From positions 1-38,438 of IMG/VR virus record IMGVR_UViG_3300032325_000224: a stretch of DNA of 38,438 nucleotides. The stretch is one strand, 5' to 3'. Source of the DNA: a virus. Positions 10,192 to 37,936 of this stretch are shown piece by piece. The notes under the pieces were generated by a model. It was not told the DNA's origin, did not search any database, and worked only from the letters and a program-made list of their open reading frames with translations. Within the stretch, counting starts at the first letter, position 1; every line of letters starts with the position of its first letter. The position numbers were made by a program, and so were the translations under genes.

Positions 10192-10370
10192 GCCACGAAC
10201 CCGTTCAACGCGAGGCGATCGATGCCGAGTGGCGGATCTTTAAGGACGCATTCAAAATGGCCTTGGCATCGCTCAAGGCCAAGAAGGAGGCGCTGCTTTA
10301 CCAGCAGAACATCGCGAAGGCGCAGGTGCTTTCCAACGCGATCAACCAAGCATGGAAGGAGGTCATGTGA
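10188..10370 (+). CDS. Small helical protein between Bet and Exo
   Basis: A 60-residue, almost entirely helical and basic protein (FKMALASLKAKKEALLYQQNIAKAQVL) that could form a coiled coil. It starts at an ATGA overlap with Bet, with GGAGGC just upstream, and ends with GTGA overlapping the next gene. It may be an accessory factor of the recombination pair; there is no recognised family. Confidence 0.6.
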   Translation: MSHEPVQREAIDAEWRIFKDAFKMALASLKAKKEALLYQQNIAKAQVLSNAINQAWKEVM

Positions 10371-10690
10371 AAATCGCCGAGAAAAAACGGACGCTCACAC
10401 GCACCGGCATCGACTGGGACAATTTCTTTCGCCTCGCAGGAATGCGCGCGGTCTACACCATGCAAGACTGCTACATTGAATCGGCGATCTCGGCAGCATC
10501 CTATCGAGGCTACAAAACCGAGACGCTTTGCAATGGCGATGGCACCAGCGTGATGCTGATCAAACGCGAGCGAGAGACCGACATTATTCTGACAGATCTC
10601 ATGGCACTGCCGGAGAAGCAACTCCGGGCGGTCTACAACGCGGCGATCGAAGCCGGACTGATCAAACCATACGAGGGAGGTGTAGGATGA
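10367..10690 (+). CDS. Hypothetical protein between Bet and Exo
   Basis: A 107-residue protein. AAGGAGG at 10355-10361 stands five bases before GTG 10367, so this GTG is preferred over the in-frame ATG at 10352, which would lie within the ribosome-binding site. Sequence: a basic N-terminus, 'YTMQDCYIESAISAASYRG', and a helical end (PEKQLRAVYNAAIEAGLIKP) that closely resembles conserved small phage proteins I cannot name. It overlaps the exonuclease gene by ATGA. Confidence 0.6.
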   Translation: MKIAEKKRTLTRTGIDWDNFFRLAGMRAVYTMQDCYIESAISAASYRGYKTETLCNGDGTSVMLIKRERETDIILTDLMALPEKQLRAVYNAAIEAGLIKPYEGGVG

Positions 10691-11352
10691 CTATCTGGCC
10701 CGAAATGGAACAGGGGAGTGAAGATTGGTTCCGCGCCCGCAAAGGCAGGCTCACCGCATCACAGATGGCCAAGGTGATCACTCCGACCGGCAAGCTCTCA
10801 AGCCAATGGGAAAAGCTCGCCATCCGCCTCGCTGGCGAATGCGTGAAACCCAATGAGATCCCAGCCTTCCTCGGCAACATCCACACTGATCGCGGCCATG
10901 AGATGGAGCCGGTCGCGCGTGATTGGTTTGCCGAATGGAGCGGCCTCGATGTCCGCACCGTCGGCTTTGTCACCAAGGACGACAACCCGGTGCTCGGATG
11001 CTCGCCCGATGCGCTGATCTATCAAGGCGATGAACCGACTTGTGGCCTCGAAATCAAATGCCCGCTGATCGAAAACCACGCGCTCTACCATTACGAAGGC
11101 GGAGTGCCTGAGCAGTACCGCGCCCAGGTGCACGGCTCGATGGTCGTCACCGGACTGCGCGAGTGGTGGTTCGTTTCCTTCAACGAAGGCACCGAGCCAT
11201 TCGTCCATTGCCAAAAGTGGGACGAGTACACCGACAAGGTGGCAGAGGCGCTCGACGAGTTCGTGACGAAGTACGCGCCGATCCGCTCGGAGGTTTTGCA
11301 CAAGCTAACCAAGAAACAAAATGCACCAAGAAGAAGAAAGTCAGTGGCATGA
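10687..11352 (+). CDS. exo: YqaJ/lambda-exonuclease-family alkaline nuclease
   Basis: A 221-residue nuclease of the YqaJ viral-recombinase family (PD-(D/E)XK fold), expected to degrade 5' strands and give 3' overhangs to Bet. Motifs in order: 'WFRARKGRLTASQMAKVI' at 13-30, 'DRGHEMEPVARDWF' near 70, 'GCSPDALIY' near 105 with the metal-binding Asp, 'GLEIKCP' near 122 with the Glu-x-Lys, and 'QYRAQVHGSMVVTG' near 143 with the family's Gln. The ATG at 10687 overlaps the previous stop; further upstream the frame is only a shadow. The basic tail (PRRRKSVA) overlaps a small zinc-ribbon gene. Confidence 0.93.
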   Translation: MTIWPEMEQGSEDWFRARKGRLTASQMAKVITPTGKLSSQWEKLAIRLAGECVKPNEIPAFLGNIHTDRGHEMEPVARDWFAEWSGLDVRTVGFVTKDDNPVLGCSPDALIYQGDEPTCGLEIKCPLIENHALYHYEGGVPEQYRAQVHGSMVVTGLREWWFVSFNEGTEPFVHCQKWDEYTDKVAEALDEFVTKYAPIRSEVLHKLTKKQNAPRRRKSVA

Positions 11353-11482
11353 TGAAGACGACTATCCAACAACCCGAAGAGCCTCATTCAGTTGCACCAT
11401 GTGCGGAAGCTGGGACTGGCCTAACCCCGCTTCAAGCTGCCCGCTCTGCCGATCTGACGAGGAAGGAGACGAGGATGAGTGA
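11321..11482 (+). CDS. Tiny zinc-ribbon protein
   Basis: A 53-residue frame overlapping the end of the exonuclease gene by 32 bases. After an acidic N-terminus it has 'CTMCGSWDWP' and then 'CPLCRSDEE', a two-CxxC zinc ribbon with 15 residues between the pairs, and a very acidic tail. Spacing and composition are those of a real small zinc protein and not of a shadow frame. Similar small ribbons lie between recombination genes in other phages. Function unknown. Confidence 0.6.
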   Translation: MHQEEESQWHDEDDYPTTRRASFSCTMCGSWDWPNPASSCPLCRSDEEGDEDE

Positions 11483-11521
11483 AGATGACTCCGGCCTCGC
11501 CGCCGTGAAAGGAGAAGATTT

Positions 11522-11773
11522 ATGAGATACGAAATCAAAACAATTCATGATGATTACGACTGCGATACTTGCGGCACGAGTTATGCGGACGGCTATCAAA
11601 TCTATCGCGACGGAGAGTTAGTCCACGAAATAAAACCTGTTGCGCATTGTTTTGGCGGAGATGATTTCAAAGCTGAGGATTGGGCTATATGGATTATTCG
11701 GGATCTTGGACATGACATATGTATTGATGGTTGGGAAGCTGCCCTCACCGCCGTGAAAGGAGGTGAGCCGTGA
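11522..11773 (+). CDS. Small hypothetical protein
   Basis: An 83-residue acidic protein with 'DYDCDTCGTSYADGYQIYRDGE', a partial metal-site-like CxxC, and a later 'AHCFGG'. The start is preceded by AAAGGAGAAG and overlaps a 16-codon frame (11475-11525) whose end (LAAVKGEDL) resembles the end of this protein (LTAVKGGEP), hinting at a small local duplication of the ribosome-binding region. I do not recognise the family. Confidence 0.6.
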   Translation: MRYEIKTIHDDYDCDTCGTSYADGYQIYRDGELVHEIKPVAHCFGGDDFKAEDWAIWIIRDLGHDICIDGWEAALTAVKGGEP

Positions 11774-12000
11774 GCGCAGGCAAAGCATCCGACCAGCAAG
11801 TCGCTGGAAACCACTACAAGGGACTGGCAATTCAGCCCGCCGAATACTGCCAGCGCAACCGCCTGCCGTACTGTGAGTCGAGCGTGATTCGCTATGTCAC
11901 AAGGCATCGCGCCAAGAACGGGCGGCAGGACATTGAAAAGGCAATCCACTGCCTACAACTCTTACTTGAAATGGAATACCCGCAAGATGAGCAATCCTAA
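11770..12000 (+). CDS. DUF3310 family protein
   Basis: A 76-residue protein with the DUF3310 signature: 'GNHYKGLAIQPAEYCQRN' followed by 'SSVIRYVTRHRAKNG' and 'DIEKAIHCLQLLLE'. The family is common in phages beside nucleotide-metabolism and replication genes; it is sometimes labelled nucleotide-kinase-like, but its activity is not established. It starts with GTG overlapping the previous stop, after AAAGGAGGTGAG. Confidence 0.85.
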   Translation: MSAGKASDQQVAGNHYKGLAIQPAEYCQRNRLPYCESSVIRYVTRHRAKNGRQDIEKAIHCLQLLLEMEYPQDEQS

Positions 12001-12190
12001 CCAAGCAGGAAAAGGCGACAGCCCAAGGCCGGTCAATGGCGAGATGTTCCGCGACAATTACGACGAGATCTTCAGGAAAGACGCCGACGATATTATCTGC
12101 CCGCATTGCGGAAGCGACAAAGATCCATTCTTTTCACGAATTGAGCCTATGGGGGATTACTGCCCCGACTGCGGAGAAGAACGCGCATGA
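11987..12190 (+). CDS. Small zinc-ribbon phage protein
   Basis: A 67-residue protein with a conserved phage motif 'NPNQAGKGDSPRPVNGEMF' and 'NYDEIF' followed by a zinc ribbon 'CPHCGSDKD' and 'CPDCGEE'. The N-terminal motif is found in many small phage proteins of unknown role. The ATG at 11987 overlaps the end of the DUF3310 gene by 14 bases, and its stop overlaps the next small gene (ATGA). A nucleic-acid-binding role is plausible from the ribbon. Confidence 0.7.
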   Translation: MSNPNQAGKGDSPRPVNGEMFRDNYDEIFRKDADDIICPHCGSDKDPFFSRIEPMGDYCPDCGEERA

Positions 12191-12288
12191 GCAATAAACC
12201 CAAACACACCCCCAAGAGCATAACCCTCGGCCTCATCATCGCCTACTTCAGCGCCGTGTTTTGGATCAGTAAGAAACTCAACAAATGA
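12187..12288 (+). CDS. 33-residue membrane peptide
   Basis: A short frame with a basic N-terminus (MSNKPKHTPKS), one hydrophobic stretch of about 15 residues (ITLGLIIAYFSAVFWI) and a basic end (SKKLNK). It is joined by ATGA overlaps to both neighbours (12187 and 12285), which argues that it is translated. Single-span microproteins of this kind are easily missed. Function unknown. Confidence 0.55.
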   Translation: MSNKPKHTPKSITLGLIIAYFSAVFWISKKLNK

Positions 12289-16303: not shown

Positions 16304-16981
16304 ATGGACATCAACTCTGAACAGTACAGCCGCATCCGCAAAGCGAATGTGGCCAACATCCTCAAAAAGCTCAAGGAGGGCAAGACGCTTTCACGCGATG
16401 ACTGGTCGCAGATCGAGGATTACAAAGCCAAAGCCGACAAACCGATCGAGGATGTCACCGAGATCAAAAAGACTGCGAAAAGCTGGGTCGAGCTCGCCGA
16501 GGTTTTGGGAGTTGCTCGCCAGACCGTCGATGTTTGGAAGAAGAAGCCGGGATCGCCGAAGCCGAGGTCGAACGGAACCCATGATGTCCTCAAGTGGGTG
16601 GCCTTCATTAAGGCCGAGGGGCTCGCGGCCAAGGGGCAATCCGAAACACCCGACGAGGCCGAGCTTCGCCTGCGGAAACTCTTCGCCGAGGTCGAGGATC
16701 GAGAGCTCAAGGTGCTAGTTCGCAAGGGGCAATTTGTCCCGATCGACGCGGTGCGTGAGCGGTGGTTCTATCACATCGGGCAGGCAAACTCGCTTTTGAG
16801 GAACAAGCTCGAAAACGAATTGCCGCCGCTGCTGGTCGGCAGAGATGCGGTGGATATCCGCAAAGAAAATGCCCGAGTGGTCGACGAGTACATCGCGATC
16901 ATGAACTCCGGCGAGCAAAAGCAGATCCCAAAACTTGAAACCAGAGGACGAAAAAAATCCGACGACCGACCTGCTCGATAA
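16304..16981 (+). CDS. terS: Terminase small subunit, Nu1-like
   Basis: A 225-residue protein in front of the large terminase. Residues 60-90 (TAKSWVELAEVLGVARQTVD) form a helix-turn-helix for recognising the packaging site. 'DEAELRLRKLFAEVEDRELKV' followed by 'GQFVPIDAVRERWFYHIGQA' and 'LLRNKLENELPPLLVG' is the characteristic helical oligomerisation region of Nu1/DUF1441-type small subunits. The basic C-terminus (RGRKKSDDRPAR) overlaps the large-subunit start by 47 bases, giving translational coupling. It is a normal length for the family. Confidence 0.85.
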   Translation: MDINSEQYSRIRKANVANILKKLKEGKTLSRDDWSQIEDYKAKADKPIEDVTEIKKTAKSWVELAEVLGVARQTVDVWKKKPGSPKPRSNGTHDVLKWVAFIKAEGLAAKGQSETPDEAELRLRKLFAEVEDRELKVLVRKGQFVPIDAVRERWFYHIGQANSLLRNKLENELPPLLVGRDAVDIRKENARVVDEYIAIMNSGEQKQIPKLETRGRKKSDDRPAR

Positions 16982-20521: not shown

Positions 20522-20598
20522 CGTAGGGCATGCAGTAGCGGTGCTGCACCAGTCTCATAAGCTGGAAAGTGTGGGTTCGACTCCCACCCCTGCAACCA
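20522..20598 (+). tRNA. tRNA-Met(CAT)-like gene in the head operon
   Basis: A 77-base cloverleaf: acceptor CGTAGGG/CCCTGCA with a C-A mismatch at the first pair and one G-T pair, D-arm with TGCA ends around GTAGCGGTGC, anticodon arm CCAGT-CTCATAA-GCTGG (anticodon CAT at 20576? no: 20556-20558), variable loop AAAGT, T-arm GTGGG-TTCGACT-CCCAC, discriminator A and encoded CCA (20596-20598). CAT means Met, or Ile if C34 is modified to lysidine. The C1-A72 mismatch is an initiator-tRNA trait, but the anticodon stem lacks the initiator's three G-C pairs. It sits between portal and protease genes and would be released from the late transcript by host RNases. Confidence 0.85.
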
Positions 20599-26453: not shown

Positions 26454-28217
26454 ATGGCAGGCATTTCCACCAAGCTCACGCTGAACGCCTCGGACTTTGT
26501 CCGTGGGATCGATCGGTCGAAAAAGTCGGCAAGTTCGCTCAAGACCTCGATGTCGTCGATCGGCTCGGGCATCGGCTCGGCCTTCTCCAGCATCACCAAG
26601 GGCGTCGGTGCAATAGGCATCGCCGCCACAGGCGCAGCCGCAGCGATCGGGGGCATCACCTACAAGCTGATCAGCATCGGCGAGGAAGGACTTCAGGCGG
26701 AAAACCGCATTAAGAGCGTCGTGAAGACCATGGGCCTTTTCGGCACCCAATCCGGTGATGTCGCATCTCGCCTCATCGAGATGGCCGATGCCACTGAGCT
26801 CGCCACAGGCGTGGATGGTGACCTGATCATGGCGGCGCAGGCAAAGCTCGCGACCTTCAAGGAACTCGCCAAGACCGCCGGCACCACCGGAGGCGCATTC
26901 GATCGCGCCACACAAGCATCCGTCGACATGGCAGCCGTCTTCGGTGGCGACGCCTCAAACTACGCCGTGCAACTTGGCAAGGCGCTGGAGGATCCAGAGA
27001 AGGGATTGGCCGCGCTCAAGCGCACCGGCGCACTGACCACCTCGCAGATCAAAGCCATTTCCGAAGAGTTCGCCGCCACCGGCAACCGCGCCAAGGCATT
27101 CGACCAGGTGCTCAAAGCCATCGAAACGCAGGTCAGCGGAGCGGCAAACGCAACGGCGAGCGGCATGTCGCGCATCAAAGTCTCGATCGGTCAGATGCTC
27201 GAAGAGGTCGGCAAGCCGATGGCCGAGGTTTTCTCCCAGTTCGCTGCCGATGTGGCCGCCATGACGCCGCAGATCGTCGCCTCACTCAGTAGCCTCGCGC
27301 CCAAGATCCGCGAAGTTGGCAGCACGCTCGCCGCCGCTTTGTCCGAAGGGCTCGCTGGCGATACCTCACGACTGGTCAAGATCGGCGAGTTGATGGGGGA
27401 AGCGGTCGCGCTTGGATTTAAGGTGGCTCTGACGCGCGGTTTCGCGGAAGCCACGGAAAGCGCTCTTCGATTGATGGAGGACTACAACCCCATCCGCAAG
27501 ATGTCCAAGTGGAGCCAAGACACTTTTGGCAACGATCCGTTTTTCAATGAAGGCAAGTTAAGCGAGGAGGTTTCAAATGCTAAAGGCCCGATCATGGAAA
27601 ACCAGATCGGTGACGGCATCGAAAGAATCCGCAGCCTGTTCAAAGAAATCTCGGTCGGTAGTAATCCGAAAAAAATAACGCAGTCAGAGTGGAATGATAA
27701 GCGTCAGGCAATCCAAAACGAAAAGAAGATCCTGCCGACCGAACCCGGCACACCGGAAGGCCCGAGTGCCGAGAATAAAGCCAAGGCCGAAGAGCTACGA
27801 CTTGCCCAAGAAGCCTACCGCCTTGAAGCCGAAATGGTGCGAGCGCGGATCGCTGGAGATGAGAAGAAGATCGCCGATCTCGAAAGGCAGAAGGCGATTC
27901 AAGAAGAGATCGTCGCGCTAAACAAGCTCGGCATGACTGGGGACAAAGCCAAGGACACAGCCGCCAAGATGGTTGATGCCCGCGCCGCGGCAGATGAGGC
28001 CGACAAGGCACGCGAGAAGAAACAACAAGGTGGCCCGAGCGCTGGTGTGAGCCAGCTCGGCAGCGTCGCCAAGGCGACCAATGTGCTGATGGGTCGCGCG
28101 GCCAATGATGGCATCCTTCAAGAAAACCGCCGCCAGACATCCCTGCTGCGATCGATTAAGGAGAATACCAAACCTAAGACGACCAACCCCGAAGTCCAAA
28201 TCCCCGTTTTTGCATGA
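26454..28217 (+). CDS. Tape measure protein
   Basis: A 587-residue protein of tape measure type: N-terminal 'KLTLNASDFVRGIDRSKKSA', a hydrophobic Ala/Gly segment (about 45-72), long alpha-helical stretches with coiled-coil rhythm, and a charged helix at 440-530 (KAKAEELRLAQEAYRLEAEM). The protein fixes tail length. Using the lambda ratio of about 0.15 nm per residue gives a tail near 90 nm, shorter than lambda; this is an estimate. No peptidoglycan hydrolase domain is visible. It directly follows the G/GT block except for one gene, and the next gene starts at an ATGA overlap. Confidence 0.88.
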   Translation: MAGISTKLTLNASDFVRGIDRSKKSASSLKTSMSSIGSGIGSAFSSITKGVGAIGIAATGAAAAIGGITYKLISIGEEGLQAENRIKSVVKTMGLFGTQSGDVASRLIEMADATELATGVDGDLIMAAQAKLATFKELAKTAGTTGGAFDRATQASVDMAAVFGGDASNYAVQLGKALEDPEKGLAALKRTGALTTSQIKAISEEFAATGNRAKAFDQVLKAIETQVSGAANATASGMSRIKVSIGQMLEEVGKPMAEVFSQFAADVAAMTPQIVASLSSLAPKIREVGSTLAAALSEGLAGDTSRLVKIGELMGEAVALGFKVALTRGFAEATESALRLMEDYNPIRKMSKWSQDTFGNDPFFNEGKLSEEVSNAKGPIMENQIGDGIERIRSLFKEISVGSNPKKITQSEWNDKRQAIQNEKKILPTEPGTPEGPSAENKAKAEELRLAQEAYRLEAEMVRARIAGDEKKIADLERQKAIQEEIVALNKLGMTGDKAKDTAAKMVDARAAADEADKAREKKQQGGPSAGVSQLGSVAKATNVLMGRAANDGILQENRRQTSLLRSIKENTKPKTTNPEVQIPVFA

Positions 28218-30881: not shown

Positions 30882-33275
30882 ATGCAAGTCCTCGCGTTTG
30901 TAGATCTCACCAACCGGAAGCTCAACAGCACCCTCGGCGGGAGCACGCTTACCCTGCCGGAGCTTGTTCAAGGCGATGAGGTCCGCATTGGGCTGCGTTT
31001 CTCGGAGCAGATCGAAGGCACCGCCACCGAAGTCTCCCGCACGCTCAACTCCCTGCGCGCCAGCATCGGCCTTGTCGATGCTCGCCCGACGGCAGGTACC
31101 TTTCAACTTTATGTCGACGGCGATGCCGCTGGCTCGCCGCTGGCGTTCGATGCGACCGCTGCCCAAGTCAAAACTGCCCTCGAAGAAGTCTACTCCTCAA
31201 CAGCAACGGTCACATTCAAAGACGGATCGTGGCTGGTCGATGTCGCCGACGCCACCGAGGCCCAACTCACAATTACCGGCACCTCGGTGAGCCTTGAGCC
31301 AACCGCCCATGTGCGGGTGCGTTCCTACCTCGTCGGCAGCAAGACGCGTCACGAGATCCGCCTGATCCGCTCGCCGCTCGCCTCGACTTCGACCTTTTCC
31401 AACATCCTGCCTGCGATGCCCGAGATCACTCGGATTCAGGCTGGCGGTAATGACAACACCACAATCTGGCCGGAGATCCAAGCTCTCAAGGTCAATCCGT
31501 TTTTCCGTGGCAGCTTTCAGATCCGCCGTAGCTACAAGAAATCTGGCGAACTCTCGATCGAAGATGGCGCGGAGGAAATCCAAGAAGCCATCGCCAAGCT
31601 CGCCGACGATGGTGGCAGCTTCACCGTCACCAACCCGAACAATAACACCGCCCACATCACCTTTGGTGGCGATATGGAAGGGATTGGATACGACTTGCTG
31701 GAGGTCGAGGTTTTTTCCGCGCCTCCGGGCGACCCGACCTTTGTCCTGAATCTCAACACTGCGGAGTTGGCCGACGCGCTGCGTGCCGTCGATAACATCA
31801 CCACGGCCGTGCTGGAGGTGGAGATGACCGTCGAGGACGAGAACAATCCCAACACCCTTTACACCATCACGCCGATCCGCGTACCGGTGCGGATCATCCG
31901 CGAGCTCAACTGGGAAGGTCTGGAAGCCGCCGCCAACATCGACTGGCTGCGCCCGCCACATGGTCGCACCTACATTCCTTTTACCGAGGATCAGATCATC
32001 ACTGGCAGCCAGCACTATGTGGCCCCGATCGGCAACGGCACCAGCACCGAGTACACGCTCACCCACAACCTCGGCACCCGCGACCTGCATGTCACGCTAC
32101 GCAAGAACGATGGCGAGTCTGCCATTGTCGATCGCCAGTTTTCTCTCGATGGCGAAGACCTCTATGTCTCCTACGCCGTGACCCTCGACAGCGAGGATGA
32201 TCTCACCATCAAGTTCAAGACGCCGCCGACAGCCAACCAGTATGTGGCGACTATCACCACTGCCGGCCCGATCTCGGCCTTCCAAGCGCACAACCACGCC
32301 ATCGAGCAGATCGAAGGGTTGAGCCTCCTGCTCGATGACCTCGGCAGCCGGGTGGAGACTTTGGAGGCATTTGTGCCAACTGCCGGTATTTCATCAGAGT
32401 CAAGCAAACAGACAACCGTGGCCTCATGGGAGTTGCCGAAAATCTTCGAGGTTTTCCCCACCCGCGCGACGGTGGATGCTGACGATGTGGTTTCGATCGA
32501 GATCGATAAGCTGCCGAGGAATGGTGGACTGCTACCTGCCAAGTACCTCACCGGGTCACTAACGGTGGCAAACACCATCCCGACAAGCCCGAGCCAAAGC
32601 GCCGTCTATCATTACACCGATACGACCAAGGAACTCGTCATCCCTGGCTACCTTGGACGAAAAGGAAAGAATATCTCCGCCCCAGCATTCTACGCATGGG
32701 ATGGCCGAGGTTTTTACCAAGTGGAGAAGATCATCGATTCGGAATCGGTCTATTACCCGTCCGACTTCAGTCGCGAACTCTTCCGCATCCATGTGAACGA
32801 GAAGCAGTTGCGCCTCAACAAAACCCTCTCACTGGACTTCTCATTCGTTTCTGCCGTCTTCAACTCCAATACCTCGGTTCATTGGGGTGTGGTGATTGAT
32901 ATTGGAATCCCACAGGGCACCCCGACAACGCCAAGTAACATCGCCCAGGTCAACTTCCTACCGCCGTCGCTCGACCACTCATTCATGCTCACCAGCGTGC
33001 CGTCGGCTCACTCCTTTGGGCTGCGCGTGACGCGCAAACTCGAAAACCTGCTTCCGGTCTACAAGGTCGATCGGGTGCTGTATGGAGCGACTGAGGCCAG
33101 CGATACCGCCCTAACAACCGCCAACTTCATCGTGCGCGGCCGCTTGGCGAGGTTCGACACCGATAACAACTCACCCGATCCAAGGGGGCTTGTCGCGTTC
33201 AACGGAATGGACGCGGAGCTCGGCGAGGACGGCGGAAGCGCATCTGACATCAAATACGGAACTGCAAAAATCTAA
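30882..33275 (+). CDS. Large tail-tip / receptor-binding protein
   Basis: A 797-residue protein, the largest in the window, with a GGGAGG ribosome-binding site. The N-terminal third has several small beta domains (VQGDEVRIGLRFSEQIEGT; AGTFQLYVDGDAAGSPLAFD). Residues 375-470 resemble a repeating fibre-shaft element (GTSTEYTLTHNLGTRDLHVT is the common 'tail fibre H-N-L-G-T' strand). A coiled-coil or trimerisation stretch (NHAIEQIEGLSLLLDDLGSR) lies near 485-510. The last 250 residues are globular and likely receptor-facing. Probably a trimeric fibre or tip protein. Confidence 0.7.
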   Translation: MQVLAFVDLTNRKLNSTLGGSTLTLPELVQGDEVRIGLRFSEQIEGTATEVSRTLNSLRASIGLVDARPTAGTFQLYVDGDAAGSPLAFDATAAQVKTALEEVYSSTATVTFKDGSWLVDVADATEAQLTITGTSVSLEPTAHVRVRSYLVGSKTRHEIRLIRSPLASTSTFSNILPAMPEITRIQAGGNDNTTIWPEIQALKVNPFFRGSFQIRRSYKKSGELSIEDGAEEIQEAIAKLADDGGSFTVTNPNNNTAHITFGGDMEGIGYDLLEVEVFSAPPGDPTFVLNLNTAELADALRAVDNITTAVLEVEMTVEDENNPNTLYTITPIRVPVRIIRELNWEGLEAAANIDWLRPPHGRTYIPFTEDQIITGSQHYVAPIGNGTSTEYTLTHNLGTRDLHVTLRKNDGESAIVDRQFSLDGEDLYVSYAVTLDSEDDLTIKFKTPPTANQYVATITTAGPISAFQAHNHAIEQIEGLSLLLDDLGSRVETLEAFVPTAGISSESSKQTTVASWELPKIFEVFPTRATVDADDVVSIEIDKLPRNGGLLPAKYLTGSLTVANTIPTSPSQSAVYHYTDTTKELVIPGYLGRKGKNISAPAFYAWDGRGFYQVEKIIDSESVYYPSDFSRELFRIHVNEKQLRLNKTLSLDFSFVSAVFNSNTSVHWGVVIDIGIPQGTPTTPSNIAQVNFLPPSLDHSFMLTSVPSAHSFGLRVTRKLENLLPVYKVDRVLYGATEASDTALTTANFIVRGRLARFDTDNNSPDPRGLVAFNGMDAELGEDGGSASDIKYGTAKI

Positions 33276-33281
33276 ATCACC

Positions 33282-34031
33282 ATGCCAGCACCAGTAATAT
33301 CCAGCACCACATCCGTCCTCGGCTACCGCAAGGGTCAATACTTTGAGTACCAGATGGCAGCCACTAATACGCCAACATCATGGACAGCCACCGGCCTCCC
33401 GAGCGGCATGACGATTAACAGCTCAGGGAAAATAAGCGGAACCGCAACAGCGGCCGGCGTCTACCTGATCAAAGTCACAGCCACCAATGGTGACGGCTCA
33501 TCCACCCCATTGGATATTGCGATGGGAATTGAGGACACCAACTACAATGACGGGCTTGGAATTGAGGTGAATATCGATCTGCTATCTGGTTCGGCATCAG
33601 TGCCGGGCATCAAGCCGTCGTCCGGGCAAGACGCAAGCCAAGCGGTGATGTATCTAAAGCATGGCGACAAAGCGTTCTTGGATCTTGGATTCTACAAGGG
33701 GACCGAACTTCAAAGCATGGCGGTTTCCTCCATCGTAATGAACATCCGCGAGTTCGATGGGGAGACAATTCTCGTGCAATCGAACGGAGCCGTACAAGCT
33801 ATTGGCACCAGTGACAAGCAACGCTACCGCATCCTCGTGGATCTCGATACCGATGAACTGCTGAATGCCCTTGGAAATTACCAGTCAGACTACAAATCCA
33901 CATTCGACGCGATTGCTGAATTTGAGTGGCGCGTGACCTACTTGGAGGAAGGAGCTCTAGCTGACGAGGTGATCCGTTCATCCAAGACCTTCCGCATTGC
34001 TATCGATCGCGATCTGGTACCAAACGCATGA
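33282..34031 (+). CDS. Ig-like (He_PIG type) tail protein
   Basis: A 249-residue protein. Residues 1-85 form a putative Ig domain: 'GYRKGQYFEYQMAATNTPTS', 'WTATGLPSGMTINSSGKISG', 'TATAAGVYLIKVTATNGDGS', the repeating pattern of bacterial and phage He_PIG domains that bind carbohydrate weakly. The rest (DGLGIEVNIDLLSGSASVPG and later 'NALGNYQSDYKSTFDAIAEF') is a second beta-rich structural part. Likely displayed on the tail. It overlaps the next gene by ATGA. Confidence 0.75.
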   Translation: MPAPVISSTTSVLGYRKGQYFEYQMAATNTPTSWTATGLPSGMTINSSGKISGTATAAGVYLIKVTATNGDGSSTPLDIAMGIEDTNYNDGLGIEVNIDLLSGSASVPGIKPSSGQDASQAVMYLKHGDKAFLDLGFYKGTELQSMAVSSIVMNIREFDGETILVQSNGAVQAIGTSDKQRYRILVDLDTDELLNALGNYQSDYKSTFDAIAEFEWRVTYLEEGALADEVIRSSKTFRIAIDRDLVPNA

Positions 34032-34450
34032 CCTACGGATCTGGCATGATCTGGCCGCTGGCCTCGGAGTACGCAAAGCGTGGCTGGGCGGTGCGGAGAA
34101 TTGGATGGGACGACCCCGACTTGCTGGGTGATACCGGCAGGGCGCTGCGCTGGGTGATCTACCAAAACTCCTTGTTCTGGCTCCTGTACAGGCAGGCCAG
34201 CAGTGAAAACAAAATCTCCCGCGTGATTCGCAACTCAGATTTTGGAGTTGATGATTTCTACGCCGAGGACTGGACGGTGTTCTCGCCGAGCTGTTCTAAC
34301 AGCGCGCAGCAGAGCGACCCGACGCAACAAGGGAAGAAACGCTACCCGCGCCCAGTGGATGTGTCGATCGTCGTTGACCCGCTAAACCCCAACTCAAAAT
34401 ACGGAGCGTGCCCCATAGTCCCGCTCTACCCATCCATTAAAAAGCCTTGA
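34028..34450 (+). CDS. Stand-alone Tad2/DUF2829-like domain protein
   Basis: A 140-residue protein. Residues 9-27 (PLASEYAKRGWAVRRIGW) match the opening of DUF2829, where a helix is followed by G-x-x-V-x-R-x-G-W; W42 and Y45 continue the first strands, and 'SDFGVDDFYAEDWTVF' (70-85) matches the closing 'F-x-x-x-D-x-x-A-x-D-W-x-V' of the family. DUF2829 includes Tad2, a phage protein that sequesters the cyclic signalling nucleotide of Thoeris defence. The rest (86-140) is Pro/Ser/Lys-rich. A homologous domain begins the next gene. Placement among tail genes is odd for a defence inhibitor, so a structural use of the fold is possible. Confidence 0.6.
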   Translation: MTYGSGMIWPLASEYAKRGWAVRRIGWDDPDLLGDTGRALRWVIYQNSLFWLLYRQASSENKISRVIRNSDFGVDDFYAEDWTVFSPSCSNSAQQSDPTQQGKKRYPRPVDVSIVVDPLNPNSKYGACPIVPLYPSIKKP

Positions 34451-36372
34451 GCACTGCACATGGTATGATCTGGCCACTTGCCTCCGAGTACGCCAAGCGC
34501 GGCTGGGCAGTGAGGCGCGCCGGTTGGGCAAACCCGGTCACAAGCCCGTTCAATGCTTCGTCTTCGCTTCGGTGGGTGACCTATCAAAATGGGCTATTTC
34601 ACCTCACCTACATTGAGCGAACGAGTGCATCGACCATCGGCAGCGTGAGTCGGGTGGTTAGGAACACGGATTTCGGAGTTGCTGAATTTTACGCCAACGA
34701 TTGGACGGTTTATTCGACAAGCTGCCAAGTCTCCAGCGGCACTCAACAGGGCAAATTGATGTACCCCGGCTATGTTGATGACGAGCCTTACAACGACCCA
34801 TTTGCTTCTGTGTTTAACTTTAGTGGCTGCCCTGATGTGCCACCTATAAGACCACCGGATGATGAGGAAGATCCAAGCTGTGGCTTATGCCCTCCGCCAC
34901 CCCTATGCGGCACGAATTTCAAACTGGTCGAAAGTGGCAGGGATCAATGCAACTGCCGCTCTTATATCTGCCAACCTACATTTTGTGGTGATCCTGCAAA
35001 ATGCCCTGACGGGTATCGAGTAAGGTACACGGGATACGATGAAGTCGGATGCCCTCAATGGGAATGCAAAAAAATAGAAGTCCAACCATGTGGCGATCCA
35101 CCAGAATGCCCAAGCACATCAAAGTTGGTGATCGCTGGATCGGATGCGAGAGGGTGCCCGATTTACATCTGCCAGCCTCTCGAATGCACCGATGTGATTG
35201 AATGCCCAGATGGGCATGTTGCCGTTTTTGGCGAACCGGATGCGGCTGGTTGCCCTACTTACACCTGTGAAAAACAAGACACCCCTTGCGGTGATCCGAT
35301 GGCTTGCCCTGAAGGCTCGAAACTTAAACAAGTCGGGGTGAGTGCGGATGGTTGCGCGATCTTTGAATGCGAGAAAAATCCAGAGCCTCCAGAGCCCCCA
35401 GAACCACCGGAGCCTCCAGAGCCTCCAGATCCTCCAGAGCCCCCAGAACCACCGGAGCCTCCAGAGCCTCCAGATCCTCCAGAGCCCCCAAGGCCTCCAC
35501 GACGCAAACCACCATGCCAACCAGCCCAAATATCCATTTCTGGAGTCACTAAATCGCCGGCATGCTTTGAGGACGGAACAGCTCCTCCGTATTCTGCCAC
35601 CTATGGATTCACAGTAAGTCTTGGGCAGGCGGAGGAATGCGCCGATGGCATATATTGGGTCACCATTAACATCAATGGAAAAACCATACGGACCACCATG
35701 AGCCCTGGTGACTCAGATAGCTATTCGGAATCTATCACTCAAACTCAAGGCGCCGATGTAAGGATTTCAGCTAACGCCTATCTGCCGATTAAGAAACTGC
35801 AATCAGGCACCGTCCATACCGAAAAGTTTCCAGAAGAGTGCGAGGAATGCGAACACCCCAACTATTGCGGCTTCACCGACCCAGAAGGTGATCCGTGTCA
35901 GTTGTTTGGTACAAGAATTACAACTACTACACAGTCTGCCTTCAGAGAGTTTGATCTGTCATGTATAGATGAAGAAGGAGAACTGAGTTTTGGGTTTGAA
36001 TCAAAGGGAACCAGTAGCATGAATGCTACCATAATTACAACAGATACATGTGAGGGCGGAAGTATCCAAACAAGCACTCAGCAATCTGGAAGTTCTAATT
36101 CATCATTATCAGTATATTTTTGCCCTGATAAAAATACCGTTATTGGGACTATTAGTTGCAGTTCATTTCTTACAAATGACGGTTGGTCCGGCGACTTTAC
36201 GGAGACCTATGATGTCTCTGGAGACAACACAGAAACTATCACTATCTCTACCCCCTGTATTGAGCCGACTGAAACAACCACTACCGTCACATACTCAAAC
36301 CCCATCGACCGATGCTGTGATGGATACGCTCCCGTCGGGCCAAATTGTGAATGCGTTTACGTAGGAAGTTGA
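34447..36372 (+). CDS. Tad2/DUF2829-like domain fused to cysteine-rich repeats and Pro-Glu linker
   Basis: A 641-residue mosaic. Residues 1-90 repeat the domain of the previous protein (RGWAVRRAGW at 18-27; DFGVAEFYANDWTVY at 75-89). Residues 135-305 hold about five cysteine-rich units of 35-45 residues with the form C-x-x-x-x-C-P-x-G...G-C-P-x-x-x-C, resembling antistasin-type domains. Residues 315-350 are a PEP/PDP repeat linker, and the C-terminal 290 residues are beta-rich with scattered cysteines. It starts with TTG in a TTGA overlap; the homologous N-terminus of the neighbour supports that start. The cysteine content is unusual for a cytoplasmic protein and suggests an exposed, disulfide-bonded or metal-binding tail appendage. 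Confidence 0.65.
   Translation: MSTAHGMIWPLASEYAKRGWAVRRAGWANPVTSPFNASSSLRWVTYQNGLFHLTYIERTSASTIGSVSRVVRNTDFGVAEFYANDWTVYSTSCQVSSGTQQGKLMYPGYVDDEPYNDPFASVFNFSGCPDVPPIRPPDDEEDPSCGLCPPPPLCGTNFKLVESGRDQCNCRSYICQPTFCGDPAKCPDGYRVRYTGYDEVGCPQWECKKIEVQPCGDPPECPSTSKLVIAGSDARGCPIYICQPLECTDVIECPDGHVAVFGEPDAAGCPTYTCEKQDTPCGDPMACPEGSKLKQVGVSADGCAIFECEKNPEPPEPPEPPEPPEPPDPPEPPEPPEPPEPPDPPEPPRPPRRKPPCQPAQISISGVTKSPACFEDGTAPPYSATYGFTVSLGQAEECADGIYWVTININGKTIRTTMSPGDSDSYSESITQTQGADVRISANAYLPIKKLQSGTVHTEKFPEECEECEHPNYCGFTDPEGDPCQLFGTRITTTTQSAFREFDLSCIDEEGELSFGFESKGTSSMNATIITTDTCEGGSIQTSTQQSGSSNSSLSVYFCPDKNTVIGTISCSSFLTNDGWSGDFTETYDVSGDNTETITISTPCIEPTETTTTVTYSNPIDRCCDGYAPVGPNCECVYVGS
35389..35490 (+). repeat. 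45-bp tandem repeat encoding Pro-Glu/Pro-Asp linker
   Basis: A 45-base unit occurs at 35389-35433 and 35434-35478 with a further 12-base partial copy to 35490. Within each unit 9-base subrepeats of the CCAGAGCCT type give PEP and PDP tripeptides. Such repeats can expand or shrink by slippage and set linker length. Confidence 0.9.
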
Positions 36373-36373
36373 T

Positions 36374-36877
36374 ATGGAAAACACACCAGCAATCACAGAC
36401 GAAGAGTTGCGTTCAATCATTTACGCTCTGACATTGGGTGAAAGACCGCGCACACGTGACAGGTGGATCAAAAAAGGCTTCAAAAAAATCCATAAGCGCG
36501 GCGAAAATGCTTTGTTTGACTATTGGAAACGACGCATCGAAACTAACGAAGCTGATTTGAAGTATGCGGTGGAGAAAAAATTGGTGTTTCTTGAACGTAT
36601 TACTGGCGCAGGAAAACTCGTACCGCCGCCTCCATCAAAACAACCTAGTCTACCGCAAATGCTCAAGTCGGCATCGAAGGCGGCCGCTAACTTCGCCCGC
36701 AGCGGCTTTGCTACCACCGATCCCGACACGCTCGCCAGCCGCATGGATACCTGCAAAGCCTGCGACCTGTGGGACGCCGCTGGCATGGCTGGCACTGGCC
36801 GCTGCCGCAAGTGCGGATGCTCGACGCAGGCGAAGCTCCGCATGGCCTCGGAGAAATGTCCTCTGGGCAAGTGGTGA
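36374..36877 (+). CDS. Zinc-binding protein, C-terminal CxxC cluster
   Basis: A 167-residue protein. The N-terminal 90 residues are helical and charged (DEELRSIIYALTLGERPRTR). The C-terminal part is 'CKACDLWDAAGMAGTGRCRK' with CxxC, then 'CRKCGCSTQAKLRMASEKCP' and 'LGKW'. This Cys pattern with the C-P-x-G-K-W end is found in a set of small phage tail-region proteins (DUF6171-like, from memory). A zinc-ribbon role in assembly is plausible. It ends 8 bases before a TTGACA motif. Confidence 0.65.
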   Translation: MENTPAITDEELRSIIYALTLGERPRTRDRWIKKGFKKIHKRGENALFDYWKRRIETNEADLKYAVEKKLVFLERITGAGKLVPPPPSKQPSLPQMLKSASKAAANFARSGFATTDPDTLASRMDTCKACDLWDAAGMAGTGRCRKCGCSTQAKLRMASEKCPLGKW

Positions 36878-36907
36878 AATGCCCGTTGACACGCTGTTTG
36901 TGTGAGG

Positions 36908-37936
36908 ATGCAGCTCACCCAGTACATCGGCGACAGCACAAGCCACGAGATACCGCTCACATGGGCTGGCGATGACTTCACGCCCGGCGAGGCGTGGTCG
37001 CTGATCTTCACGGCCAAGCGCAGCGCCCAGGACTCAGACGACGCGGCACTCTTCCAGAAAGTCACCGGTGCTGGCATCTCAGTGACTAGCAACACCGCCG
37101 AGGTCGAGATCGTGCCGGCCGACACACTGGCTCTTCCGTCGGCCACCTACATCTGGGACATCCAAGCGCAAAGCCTCAGCACCGGCGAGGTGCGCACAGT
37201 CGCACTGGGCGGCATCAAGCTCGTGCGTGATGTGACCCGCAAGACGACCTCCAGCACGCAAATTTTCACCACCCAACCCGGCGTGCCTATGTCTGGCAAG
37301 AGCGCCTACGAAGTCGCCGTCGAGAGTGGCTTTAGCGGCAGCCAGAGCCAATGGCTTGCTAGCCTTGTCGGTCCACAGGGGGCTCAAGGTGCCAAGGGCG
37401 ACCAAGGGCTCGTTTATTTGGGCGACTATGTTTCCGGCAATGGATACATCAACGGCATCGCTGTCGTGAAAGGCAGCGACAACAACCTTTACATCGCAAA
37501 GGCCAGCGGCGGATTAGCCGATCCGGTTGGCAACACGGCGCAATGGAACATTTTCCTACCGAAAGGAAGCCAAGGCCCGCAAGGCGAGCAAGGCCCCGCA
37601 GGATCAACAGGCCCAGCCGGTGTTGACGCTTTGTGGAATTACACGGGCGCATACAACCTCGGCGCGAGCTACGCCGTCGGCGATGTCGTCACTTACAACG
37701 GCGAGCTTTTTTACAGAAAGAATTCCAACGGCGGCAATGTAGGTGACAACCCATTTAATGGCAGCTCCTTCTGGGATCTTCTCGCCGCGAAGGGCGAGCA
37801 AGGCCCAGCAGGCCCAGCCGGAAGCGCAGGGGCTCAAGGGGTGGCCGGTCCAACAGGACCCCAAGGCCCAGCCGGGACGCCAGCACCCACCTACACCTTC
37901 TACATTCAAGGGGGCGACCTCTACATGAGCTATTGA
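36908..37936 (+). CDS. Baseplate/fibre protein with collagen-like repeats and carbohydrate-binding module
   Basis: A 342-residue protein. The N-terminus (QYIGDSTSHEIPLTWAGDDF; later 'GEAWSLIFTAKRS') resembles the attachment domain of BppU-like baseplate upper proteins. Three Gly-X-Y collagen-like stretches (near 158, 220 and 300) separate two copies of a chitin/CBM5-12-like module: 'LGDYVSGNGYINGIAVVKGS' and 'YTGAYNLGASYAVGDVVTYN'. The protein is therefore a trimeric stalk with sugar-binding knobs. ATG 36908 is preferred over GTG 36902 because it lies 22 bases from TTGACA as in neighbouring genes, with GAGG just before it. Confidence 0.75.
   Translation: MQLTQYIGDSTSHEIPLTWAGDDFTPGEAWSLIFTAKRSAQDSDDAALFQKVTGAGISVTSNTAEVEIVPADTLALPSATYIWDIQAQSLSTGEVRTVALGGIKLVRDVTRKTTSSTQIFTTQPGVPMSGKSAYEVAVESGFSGSQSQWLASLVGPQGAQGAKGDQGLVYLGDYVSGNGYINGIAVVKGSDNNLYIAKASGGLADPVGNTAQWNIFLPKGSQGPQGEQGPAGSTGPAGVDALWNYTGAYNLGASYAVGDVVTYNGELFYRKNSNGGNVGDNPFNGSSFWDLLAAKGEQGPAGPAGSAGAQGVAGPTGPQGPAGTPAPTYTFYIQGGDLYMSY

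Follow-up and report, generated by a model that had tools for sequence, protein, structure and literature searches.

The established role of the phage protein Tad2 is that of a free, intracellular sponge for immune nucleotides; its protomers form tetramers. In Pfam these proteins belong to PF11195 (Tad2-like, DUF2829), for which the cut-off is 25 bits; the known Tad2 comparators used here were Gp34.65 (8sme-8smg), SptTad2 (8wjd), ModTad2 (9eib) and 8kbi. Phage fibre adhesins are known to evolve by keeping the base fixed and exchanging the tip. In the literature that we searched, which left most subscription journals outside its coverage, PF11195 occurs in a single paper, concerning a free Tad2 protein, and we found no description of tail proteins with Tad2-like domains. 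Here, we describe a pair of adjacent phage genes in which a Tad2-like domain probably serves as the base of modular tail proteins.

The window analysed is a virus record of 38,438 bases (IMGVR_UViG_3300032325_000224) from an uncultured, lambda-like tailed phage, with upstream genes for terminase GpA, a lambda-type portal, an S49 protease and a TMP_2 tape measure. A tRNA-Met gene (20522-20598) lies between the portal and protease genes. Downstream of the TMP_2 gene come tail genes, an Ig-domain protein, ORF A and ORF B, and beyond these a small protein precedes a collagen-like tail fibre. The preliminary description had located the domain pair inside the tail gene cluster, and this placement holds, since tail proteins flank the pair, with TMP_2 upstream and the collagen-like fibre downstream. 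The features are as follows:

26454..28217, plus strand: TMP_2 tape-measure protein (context)
30882..33275, plus strand: 797-aa tail protein, the second conserved upstream neighbour
33282..34031, plus strand: Ig-domain (He_PIG) tail protein, directly before the Tad2-like genes in all compared relatives
34028..34450, plus strand: ORF A, 140 aa, Tad2-like domain and short conserved tail, without the appendage
34043..34294, plus strand: Tad2-like domain of ORF A, residues 6-89
34447..36372, plus strand: ORF B, 641 aa, with a TTG start and a 4-nt overlap with the ORF A stop
34462..34725, plus strand: Tad2-like domain of ORF B, residues 6-93
34879..35373, plus strand: cysteine-rich tandem repeats of ORF B, G/D-C-xxx-C units (0-10 in relatives)
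35377..35514, plus strand: proline-rich ORF B linker, encoded by 45-bp tandem repeats that are nearly perfect
35521..35841, plus strand: conserved ORF B domain, residues 359-465, beta-rich by inspection only
35842..36369, plus strand: hypervariable C-terminal module of ORF B, swapped even among close relatives
36902..37936, plus strand: collagen-like tail-fibre protein (downstream context)

The 167-aa protein at 36374-36877 carries a zinc-ribbon-like C-terminal cysteine motif and matches phrog_13558 (E 1.8e-12), and similar-looking proteins also come after ORF B in relatives.

That the two genes begin with homologous domains of about 85 residues, as first reported from the sequence alone, was confirmed, and the genes had been located correctly: the N-termini of ORF A and ORF B share 53% identity over ~136 aa (E=2e-40). 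Of the pattern read in them, a helix, V-R-R-x-G-W, aromatic strands and a closing F-x-A-x-D-W-T are present and conserved across 31 aligned copies, and the fusion of one copy to a large cysteine-rich appendage is borne out for ORF B. Close relatives, e.g., L003, have ATG where ORF B has its TTG start.

More than a dozen IMG/VR contigs carry close relatives, as do Verrucomicrobia MAGs, with four of the five MAG loci named Akkermansiaceae or Akkermansia. Most of these relatives keep the tandem pair, and a single fused copy is found in L020 and L049. Among distant relatives, the genome locus L032 joins one domain to a cysteine-rich protein, L062 carries the domain close to the C-terminal end of a tail-module protein of 274 aa, and L068 and L069 each have two adjacent copies. 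In L020, L062, L068 and L069, both upstream genes are homologous to those of the window (phmmer E <=3e-98 for the 797-aa protein and <=3.8e-22 for the Ig-domain protein); ORF A and ORF B thus adjoin conserved tail genes. A search of 50,697 phage records returned no relative, matches falling only outside the domain, and the family was not found in the cultured phages searched. Matches at L033, L034 and L063 were judged to be noise. A tree of domain copies separates A from B and pairs the two L069 copies together, with modest support, and does not date the duplication. Two further observations concern individual relatives: the 178-kb Akkermansiaceae MAG contig JAGYIT010000014.1 (L022, L024) holds two copies of the tail module, near both ends and in opposite orientation, and in L062 the Tad2-like tail gene is followed (10330-12224) by glycosyltransferase-like and sulfotransferase-like proteins, as judged by eye.

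The domains of ORF A and ORF B share with Tad2/DUF2829 an N-terminal helix, a G-x-x-V-x-R-x-G-W block, strands, a short final helix with A-x-D-W and a last strand, in identical order and at similar length. They differ in scoring under the curated cut-off, in lying in a tail module, often in tandem, and, for ORF B, in being fused to a variable, cysteine-rich appendage. Membership of DUF2829, which had been proposed as something that a profile search would recover, was found for the family profile and not for single proteins. No single family protein reaches the PF11195 cut-off (best 16.1 bits, for the second ORF of L068; 12.6 bits for the ORF A domain), so the name DUF2829 is here a statement of remote homology. 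The AhtL-like and GlcNAc_2-epim models give some members weak scores comparable to or better than those of PF11195, and searching Pfam, PHROGs, NCBIfam and the PDB with single proteins yielded no significant family. A weak match of L062 to phrog_643 ('transcriptional regulator', E 0.0085) was dropped because genuine Tad2s matched other PHROGs. The window also contains, at 16346-16435, a PF11195 match with a record-level E of 0.00124, which was set aside as chance; it lies in a protein (16304-16981) judged small-terminase-like by eye and position, arises through L-K-x-G-K-x-x-x-R-x-x-W and is similar in strength to the match of the family.

Profiles gave a more specific result, placing the family with known Tad2 proteins at the superfamily level. 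Profile A10, built from 31 copies, produced six matches at E<=10 among 177,635 distinct PDB sequences, all of them Tad2 (E 0.025-0.13), and in the best three the N-terminal R-x-G-W and C-terminal A-x-D-W blocks were both in register. The identical six sequences were retrieved by profile A8, which holds only four divergent relatives, from L062, L068 and L069. Alignment of the family with Tad2 by hhalign scored 26.9-36.4, and none of 200 column-shuffled controls exceeded 17.6; under the family HMM, four of 12 Tad2s ranked above all 20,000 shuffles and ten of 12 were equalled by at most seven. A profile restricted to the close family had weak hhalign support, which we attribute to its low diversity, and adding L049, L062, L068 and L069 improved the score. 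In the reciprocal direction, the broad profile A7 recovered two of the Pfam-positive Tad2 loci (G038:C9:1124 and G077:C127:20997; E 0.06-0.09) from 388 genomes of the host phylum, and the narrower profile A5, run on nine Tad2-bearing genomes, did not retrieve their Tad2 loci. Singly, these E-values are weak, and it is their specificity that is persuasive.

Structure prediction, which the preliminary description had named as a further comparison, agreed in part. Without templates, AlphaFold2 modelled residues 11-80 of ORF A at pLDDT 76-82 and the domain alone with moderate confidence (mean pLDDT 79, pTM 0.68), in the order helix, four strands, helix, strand, which is compatible with Tad2. Compared with predicted viral structures, the model found proteins named Tad2-like at ranks 1 and 3 (probability 1.00 and 0.89), but Foldseek searches of the PDB with both models placed no Tad2 in the top 50. 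The phage behind the second-ranked viral structure, Escherichia phage 4MG, had neither a PF11195 nor a family match, and this structure was set aside.

Beyond the shared domain, ORF B is built like a modular tail fibre or receptor-binding protein, with a conserved N-terminal base, repeats and linkers, a swapped C-terminal tip and fibre genes in its neighbourhood. Across 17 ORF B relatives, the median pairwise identity is 66% in the Tad2-like domain, 51% in the middle domain and 17% in the C-terminal module; between the window and L001, the corresponding values are 91%, 75% and 17%. The N-terminus is therefore conserved and the C-terminus hypervariable and exchanged. In contrast to known modular fibres, the base is Tad2-like and matches no fibre anchor domain of Pfam or PHROGs, and the stalk is cysteine-rich; we know of no fibre anchor domain that equals this base. 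The cysteine-rich repeats, which match nothing in Pfam or the PDB, probably form a disulfide-bonded stalk. The 45-bp repeats of the linker (35379-35490) are 98% identical to one another, and relatives carry polyproline or polyglycine of differing length at this position, and repeat slippage may thus be a source of linker variation.

We consider it fairly probable (roughly 0.68) that a Tad2-like fold has been exapted as the virion-docking base of modular tail adhesins. The N-terminal ~85 residues of ORF A and ORF B would then be a remote, rebuilt version of the Tad2-like fold, used to dock the protein on the tail tip or to oligomerise it there. ORF A would be the bare base unit; in ORF B, the base would be followed by the cysteine-rich stalk, the proline-rich linker, the conserved domain and, as the probable site of host contact, an exchangeable C-terminal tip. 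The A and B bases may assemble together, as Tad2 protomers do in tetramers, and nucleotide binding would have been lost in the tail copies.

The same conservation pattern bears on a different role for the domain, namely that of a binding module (e.g., for host glycans) present in both tail proteins, instead of an anchor. Its many invariant aromatic residues, the fact that ORF A holds little else and the position of the domain near the C-terminus in L062 would suit such a role, but the domain is the most conserved part of these proteins, which is usually the opposite of what host-contact modules show, and it is N-terminal in members other than L062. We regard this role as rather unlikely.

The preliminary description had left open whether the fold is used structurally or carried by the particle as a sponge, and it is the structural use that fared better, favoured by the position among tail genes and the conserved-base, variable-tip build, whereas the sponge is weakened by loss of motifs. 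A Tad2-type sponge would still bind a nucleotide signal and block Thoeris or CBASS signalling, possibly as a protein expressed late together with the tail genes or as one brought in by the particle and set free on infection. Kinship to Tad2 by profiles speaks for it, and many copies per virion are plausible for tail proteins. The S-Q motif before the last helix is present in 11 of 12 Tad2s and in none of 24 tail copies, and W-x-G-K, which follows R-x-G-W, in 10 of 12 and in one of 24; the exception, the second ORF of the divergent L068, keeps W-S-G-K, similar to the W-N-G-K of Tad2, a point in favour of the sponge. The gcADPR pocket of Tad2 lies in the beta1-beta2, beta3-beta4 and beta4-alpha3 loops and helix alpha3, according to a review (PMC12043709); both motif sites appear to lie in these regions, and their changes thus probably affect the pocket. 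Fusion to cysteine-rich, swapped C-termini also suits an extracellular role. The setting of Pfam-type Tad2 genes differs as well: the five that were examined in cultured phages have ssb, recombination, holin or endolysin genes or small unnamed genes nearby, and none of the five lies between tail-tip and fibre genes. A sponge function is therefore doubtful. Were the tail-associated domain still to bind nucleotides, which we think quite improbable, one protein would combine host-contact apparatus with a neutraliser of immune messengers.

A convergent or chance resemblance to Tad2, with the domain an unrelated small tail fold, would accommodate the sub-threshold single-sequence scores and the negative PDB fold search, but it is very unlikely given that two profiles each retrieved Tad2 proteins only, and given the outcome of the two shuffle controls.

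Exaptation of the fold as a tail base, the reading that we prefer, has consequences for how such genes are interpreted. A conserved Tad2-like lineage in phage tails suggests shared ancestry of sponge and structural proteins, and automatic 'anti-defence' labels on Tad2-like matches may mislead where the genes lie in tail modules. The family of ORF A and ORF B also supplies a candidate protein for host contact in Verrucomicrobia phages.
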